23,554 bases of DNA from a virus, in IMG/VR virus record IMGVR_UViG_3300037502_004176, positions 1-23,554 of that record. The stretch is one strand, 5' to 3'. Positions 21,931 to 22,018 of the stretch are shown one piece after another. The position numbers and the translations under genes are program-made. The notes under the pieces were generated by a model. The model saw only the letters and a list, made by a program, of their open reading frames with translations, was not told where the DNA came from and did not search any database. Position 1 is the stretch's first letter. Each line of letters starts with the position of its first letter.

Positions 21931-21959
21931 AAAAAGACACCTCCCGAATGGAAGATGCC
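21931..21959 (-). terminator. Intrinsic terminator in the leader just upstream of terS
   Basis: Minus-strand GGCATCTTCC pairs with GGGAGGTGTC (10 bp, three G-U pairs) around an ATTC loop, followed by TTTTTG. It lies only about 25 bases after the predicted start of the late promoter and about 20 bases before terS. It should stop both read-through from the early operon and transcripts from the adjacent promoter. Confidence 0.78.
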
Positions 21960-21980
21960 CTTTCATTAATCAAAATTTTT

Positions 21981-21995
21981 CATAATATTATTATG
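21981..21995. promoter_or_regulatory. Perfect 15-bp palindrome over the -10 box (possible operator)
   Basis: CATAATA-A-TATTATG is a perfect inverted repeat that includes the -10 hexamer and the predicted transcription start. It could bind a regulator or form a small leader hairpin; AT-rich palindromes also occur by chance. Confidence 0.35.
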
Positions 21996-22018
21996 AACTA
22001 TAAAATCGGCGCTTTCAA
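21990..22018 (-). promoter_or_regulatory. Predicted vegetative-type promoter of the late operon
   Basis: TTGAAA (22013-22018) and CATAAT (21990-21995) lie 17 bases apart on the minus strand. Each hexamer matches the consensus at five of six positions and the spacing is optimal. No extended -10 TG is present. Transcription would start near 21983, giving a leader of about 50 bases to the end of the terminator. It lies just after the ArpU-type regulator gene, the usual place of late promoters in related phages. Confidence 0.66.

Follow-up and report, generated by a model that had tools for sequence, protein, structure and literature searches.

In phage lambda, the Q gene lies directly upstream of the late promoter pR′, the place that a late regulator gene takes in the virus studied here, IMG/VR record IMGVR_UViG_3300037502_004176. 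The window that we analysed, i.e. the whole stretch of 23,554 nucleotides (nt; positions 1 to 23,554 of the record), contains a late promoter between this regulator gene and the first late gene, terS, and a predicted terminator comes directly after this promoter. A described counterpart is the pR′/tR′ region of the lambdoid phages lambda and 21, controlled by Q proteins. The likeness lies in a terminator soon after the transcription start (+1) with late genes beyond it, and may extend to a binding site embedded in the promoter. Direct repeats within the promoter are the binding site of the Q protein of phage 21. This protein also depends on a −10-like pause element in the initial transcribed region, and subsequently it resists terminators (PMC6606751; this and the other papers are cited from excerpts). 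AlpA of Pseudomonas aeruginosa was long held to be an activator but proved to be an antiterminator, with its site within the promoter; its targets carry terminators that begin 26 and 54 nt past +1, on which the effect of AlpA depends (PMC7969949). Small proteins of the RinA/ArpU/LtrC/Alt class are encoded by the last gene of the early region, directly upstream of a late promoter with repeats (PMC13123087).

Q-like control is already known; if the late leaders of this regulator class share a conserved terminator, they would add a new form of it. Our searches of open-access literature turned up no paper that connects ArpU, RinA or Alt with antitermination or with a terminator. Our comparison indicates that the same promoter-then-stop layout, as predicted from sequence, is present beside the late regulators of many Gram-positive phages. 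This recurrence suggests that so-called activators let RNA polymerase pass a stop signal.

Late promoter and terminator in the window

The late regulator gene (22036–22563, on the minus strand like all features of this region) encodes a protein of 175 amino acids, assigned to phrog_1558 by a profile match. Downstream of it lies the late promoter (21990–22018), consisting of TTGAAA (22018–22013), a spacer of 17 base pairs (bp) and CATAAT (21995–21990), with a motif score of 15.4 against a 99% null level of 8.7. Imperfect repeats with a spacing of 11 bp (TGTCC / TGGTA / GCGCC; 22000–22034) surround the −35 element as a putative regulator site; they were read by eye and are weak when taken alone. 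The promoter is followed by a discriminator and an initial transcribed region that are conserved in the family (21974–21989). The inferred +1 is at about 21983, and the stretch 21982–21974 has the −10-like form TGnxAxxxT, in a register picked after inspection. Fold and conservation predict an intrinsic terminator at 21931–21960, formed by a hairpin (21960–21935) and a run of five T's (21935–21931). The first late gene, terS (21460–21909; Terminase_2 by domain match), starts with a GTG at 21909 that is preceded by its own ribosome-binding site, and terL and structural genes are located downstream of it.

The initial annotation of the window had described a promoter followed by a hairpin and T-run before terS, and these coordinates hold. 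It had given the hairpin 10 bp; the hairpin itself stands, but its A-tract pairs with the U-tract, which extends the stem outward to 17 pairs in the fold. Leader and hairpin together fold at −21.6 kcal/mol (z −3.5), and 1 of 200 shuffled sequences folded as well. The distance from +1 to the hairpin, estimated earlier at about 25 bases, is ~23 nt. Only ~25 nt separate the hairpin from the GTG of terS, too few for another promoter plus a leader, as had been argued. Hence, the deduction that late transcripts must read through the hairpin is sound.

A perfect 9-bp inverted repeat, TTCATAATA-N-TATTATGAA, covers the −10 element and the start site (21979–21997). This repeat also occurs in locus L001, and is absent from more distant relatives.

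Single-sequence scans of 19.5 kb found no excess of such elements over shuffled sequences, with 44 promoter-like sites versus 55.9 expected and 9 terminator-like sites versus 12.7 expected, although the late promoter of the window tied for the best scan score (10/12). Since neither element exceeds chance in a scan, comparison across loci is needed, and it is conservation that lifts the layout above chance.

Conservation among phrog_1558 loci

Relatives with a phrog_1558 gene were collected from phages (L003–L007), from IMG/VR (the best 80 of 285 confirmed matches, giving 79 loci) and from species genomes (23 loci). These 107 loci plus the window were reduced to 74 after merging at ≥80% identity over 200 nt. 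A terminator was called where a T-run (4 or more T in 5 positions and 5 or more in 8) came right after a closed stem of at least 5 pairs and at most −8 kcal/mol.

Such a hairpin with T-run was found within 220 nt past the regulator stop codon in 57 of the 74 loci, compared with 38 of 370 dinucleotide-shuffled sequences and 54 of 439 ends of other open reading frames (ORFs) in the same loci. With a threshold of −14 kcal/mol, the numbers were 41/74, 4/370 and 8/439, respectively. When only gaps of 80–600 nt between genes on the same strand were considered, 40 of 52 regulator gaps contained a terminator versus 16 of 143 other gaps. The reverse-strand control still yielded 17 of 74 loci, because hairpins are symmetric. 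Furthermore, an alignment of six close relatives retained 15 consensus hairpin pairs, five of which showed a compensatory double change.

A 26-nt promoter motif, gTGnTAntATGaTAgtgTGaAAaAat, scored above the 99% null level in 62 of the 74 loci. Locus L059 was left out because its motif lies inside a gene, leaving 61 loci with a promoter motif. The phrog_1558 loci served both to train the motif model and as the loci scored with it; the held-out sets and the motif-first search described below are fairer tests. A −35 element with 5 or 6 matches was present 16–18 bp upstream in 24 of the 61 loci, against 1.1 expected. Promoters with such a near-consensus −35 should fire unaided, which would be odd for the target of a plain activator.

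The upstream DNA of the 61 loci showed autocorrelation at a lag of 11 (z 12.2) and of 22 (z 7.0). These repeats span the −35 region in the family, and imperfect promoter repeats are a trait of the Ltr class. Half-sites differ among phages (TGTCC, TGCAC, GGGCA and TGTCA, by eye), whereas the −10 element and the start region are constant, a combination that would fit a phage-specific protein binding the repeats and the host polymerase recognising the rest. The most conserved bases were T at −4 and A at −3 (97% of the loci), T at +2 (84%) and A at +6 (89%). The stretch TGnxAxxxT at +2 to +10, which resembles an extended −10 element, occurred in 19 of the 61 loci versus 0.45 expected, and A at +6 together with T at +10 in 37 versus 7.6 expected, both in a register picked after inspection. 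Beyond about +12, the leader RNA was not conserved.

Other late regulators and reference phages

When IMG/VR was searched with nothing but the promoter motif, 24 loci were obtained, 17 of which had a terminator within 220 nt from +1. In 21 of the 24, an ORF of at least 50 codons ended within 150 nt upstream, and several of these ORFs were not obviously phrog_1558. The search pattern was derived from the phrog_1558 motif, the 24 loci were not dereplicated (L128, L131 and L136 look alike, as do L129 and L140), and the family set already contained the contigs of four of them (L118, L121, L126, L138).

In Bacilli genomes, the motif trained on phrog_1558 stood beside 9 of 32 loci matching the ArpU model TIGR01637, with a downstream terminator in seven, and beside 9 of 30 loci matching the RinA model TIGR01636, with a downstream terminator in four; about 0.3 loci were expected in each set at the 99% level. 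TIGR01636 loci under the cut-off were retained among the 30. These counts are limited because many TIGR01637 hits precede recombinase-like ORFs or lack the motif. In seven loci (L228, L229, L231, L239, L241, L242, L248), a protein matching the ArpU model is directly followed by an ORF that resembles a tyrosine recombinase by eye, without a late-promoter motif.

Positions in the reference phages were counted from the inferred +1. Terminators were found at +61 to +85 in phi11 (RinA; terS 48 nt further), +25 to +50 in phi13 (LtrC), +9 to +31 in Sfi21 (DUF1492) and +18 to +35 in Javan278. PK5.2 (ArpU) has two, at −122 to −94 and at +20 to +44. In TP901-1 (Alt), the terminator lies at +445 to +466, past two tRNA genes and 23 nt before terS, and the terminators of phiFL1A and BtpYZU03 likewise lie past a tRNA. 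In SAP8, the terminator is annotated in the record itself; our finder missed this hairpin, as terS is annotated to begin ahead of it. The phrog_1558 locus of the window shares its gene position, promoter motif and terminator with several RinA/ArpU/LtrC/Alt loci. The lambda-like layout proposed for the window is strongly supported by this comparison, and extends far beyond the phage in which it was noticed.

The tRNA genes between late promoter and terminator are located at 3135–3376 in L109 (TP901-1), 4595–4667 in L226 (phiFL1A) and 2749–2820 in L113 (BtpYZU03). It looks as if the late leader RNA of these three phages carries tRNAs.

Position of the terminator and alternative explanations

Among the 61 loci with a promoter motif, a terminator was present in the 200 nt past +1 in 51, and in the 160 nt upstream in five. 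In the 51 loci, the median hairpin start was at +30 and the median T-run at +62. These positions bear on an explanation in which the regulator only activates initiation, while a terminator that is leaky or overcome in another way (by another phage or host factor) blocks basal and early read-through. Such an insulator belongs upstream of the promoter, yet loci with an upstream terminator mostly keep the downstream one (4/5 phrog_1558 loci; 5/6 in the ArpU and RinA sets). The upstream 'terminators' of L252 and phiFL1A lie in repeat DNA, are doubtful and were not counted as evidence. Conversely, repeats upstream of and around −35 would suit an activator, and partial termination would still yield a regulated operon. 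Moreover, P23 reporter activity of phi13 needs Ltr and the promoter repeats (excerpt of PMC13123087). The same excerpt describes a phi13 late-promoter reporter that was silent without induction and ran to 50 bp past the transcription start site. On the inferred +1, the end of this reporter falls within the T-run and the hairpin was retained, so that the reporter, as far as the excerpt describes it, cannot tell activation from antitermination. We consider activation alone unlikely.

The hairpin could instead be the terminator of the early operon only, unrelated to the late promoter; the early region ends with the regulator gene, and terminators are common at operon ends. However, PK5.2, L221, L238, L244 and L270, among them several ArpU-model loci, have a separate terminator on either side of the promoter. 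The downstream one must therefore be more than an end signal of the early operon, and late transcripts would have to pass the hairpin anyway. In view of these double-terminator loci and the 51 downstream versus 5 upstream terminators, we rejected this explanation as a general cause and regard it as very improbable.

In most loci, promoter and terminator bound an RNA of ~50–80 nt, and in TP901-1, phiFL1A and BtpYZU03 tRNA genes hold the same place. Both features would fit the view that the short terminated RNA is itself the product, as a small regulatory RNA, with late genes made mainly from elsewhere. The space downstream of the hairpin argues otherwise. In 47 loci, the terminator is followed by a gene that can be recognised; the start of this gene lies no more than 40 nt from the T-run in 17 loci and no more than 60 nt in 20. 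In the 17 loci, and in the window with its 25 nt, there is no room for late 5′ ends past the hairpin, so late transcripts must cross it. In loci with longer gaps, a promoter beyond the terminator could still be accommodated. Furthermore, the lack of RNA conservation past about +12 does not suit a functional RNA, and mutation of the TATA-box of phi13 P23 abolishes particle production (excerpt of PMC13123087). A role of the short RNA as the main product is therefore improbable.

A promoter, leader and terminator also form the layout of an attenuator, in which the leader would fold into an antiterminator upon a signal. Without the 3′ arm of the hairpin, leaders folded like shuffled sequences (mean z 0.24; 4 of 51 below −2), and an Rfam scan of the window found no family. 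The initial annotation had left open whether the protein or the leader RNA works by antitermination. The protein is the best inference, whereas control by the RNA alone is disfavoured and seems to us scarcely probable.

The regulator protein

The window regulator matched the phrog_1558 profile over its full length (E 2.5e-47, residues 5–169), and aligned relatives showed 27–78% identity. A partial match to phrog_36, 'transcriptional regulator', covered residues 119–171 (E 6.9e-9). The structure predicted from 49 sequences is all-helical, with a mean predicted local distance difference test score (pLDDT) of 82.4, and combines a helical N-terminal part with a C-terminal helix-turn-helix (HTH) that resembles sigma region 4. 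The protein had been called ArpU-type in the initial annotation. This name suits its gene position and its HTH, but not the family model: an NCBIfam search found no family at E 0.001, and the window protein differs from both ArpU (TIGR01637) and RinA in matching neither model. When the phrog_1558 profile was compared with those of small alignments of ArpU and of RinA, only the HTH aligned, with 10% and 20% probability, respectively.

Other genes in the window

The gene at 16976–18754 (minus strand) encodes a Mu-F-like minor head protein with an HExxH motif (YHEAGHAFD) in its C-terminal half, which suggests a fused metallopeptidase-like domain. GDSL/SGNH hydrolase domains occur in both adjoining genes at 2387–3265 and 3406–5421 (both minus strand). 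One of these domains is free, while the other ends a longer, probably tail-associated protein.

Discussion

We propose that the regulator loads onto RNA polymerase at the late promoter and probably acts as an antiterminator in the manner of Q and AlpA; it may also help initiation. In this scheme, sigma-A polymerase would start between the regulator gene and terS and, when alone, would stop at the terminator ~50 nt further on. The regulator would bind the 11-bp-spaced repeats that span the −35 region, and contact the polymerase during initiation or shortly afterwards, possibly when the conserved initial transcribed region slows it down. The modified polymerase would then pass the terminator, and the packaging, head, tail and lysis genes would be transcribed.

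The resemblance to known antiterminators is one of layout. No sequence homology to lambdoid Q was found in a comparison with QuuD, the repeats of the window family are 11 bp apart and span the −35 region, the hosts are Firmicutes, and the layout is here read from sequence. The sites of Q and AlpA lie between −35 and −10, whereas the candidate repeats span the −35 region, and AlpA, from another host phylum, has only a weak fold match with the window regulator.

The predicted fold speaks in part for the proposed antitermination. Q of phage 21 (6p18) is row 6 of the VIA comparison with the regulator model (Z 6.7, rmsd 4.2, 98 residues, model residues 34–166), but this score is below Z 8 and tied with many sigma region 4 rows, which cover residues ~72–167. 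The AlpA complexes 7xya and 7xyb are ranks 6 and 18 in Foldseek, with weak matches (E 0.48 and 0.8; TM 0.35 or less). These fold scores are by themselves no demonstration of a relationship. The sequence comparisons weigh against the proposal. With QuuD, a member of the PF06530 Q family, hhalign gave 0.8% probability, and no sequence homology to Q was found in this comparison; QuuD itself matches the Q protein of phage 21 by sequence. PF06530 also matched two of 51 relatives, but a best E of 0.0048 is close to what 51 scans would yield by chance, and these matches were rejected.

Further points against it come from the loci: no terminator was found in 17 of the 74, and a free search for a −10-like pause hexamer was marginal (40 of 61 loci versus 28.1 expected). 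Among the reference phages, A118 has a long hairpin with a weak tail, B054 has neither motif nor hairpin, and the start region of phi13 lacks the shared motif (score −8.1), with TATAAT and the terminator present. Excerpts of the literature describe Gram-positive late regulators as initiation activators and place the needed phi13 repeats at −107 to −42, further upstream than a Q site (PMC13123087), and RinA is described as governing sarA (excerpt of PMC9867676). Overall, the interpretation first given for the window is partly supported.

A wider and more tentative reading, which we regard as quite possible, is that RinA, ArpU, LtrC, Alt, DUF1492 and phrog_1558 proteins are all Q-like antiterminators that pass a terminator ~30–60 nt downstream of a shared late-promoter design. 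With the same reservation, this design would consist of direct repeats, an extended −10 element and a conserved initial transcribed region.

Control of the late genes decides particle production and host lysis by induced prophages of streptococci, staphylococci, enterococci, Listeria, lactococci and bacilli. With a conserved predicted terminator past these promoters, late transcription would include a read-through step, of which we found no description in the open-access literature searched. Promoter and terminator together offer a signature by which late operons, and late regulators that lack annotation, can be found in sequence data. If the reading for the whole class is true, the late switch of lambda was invented a second time, with no relation in sequence.
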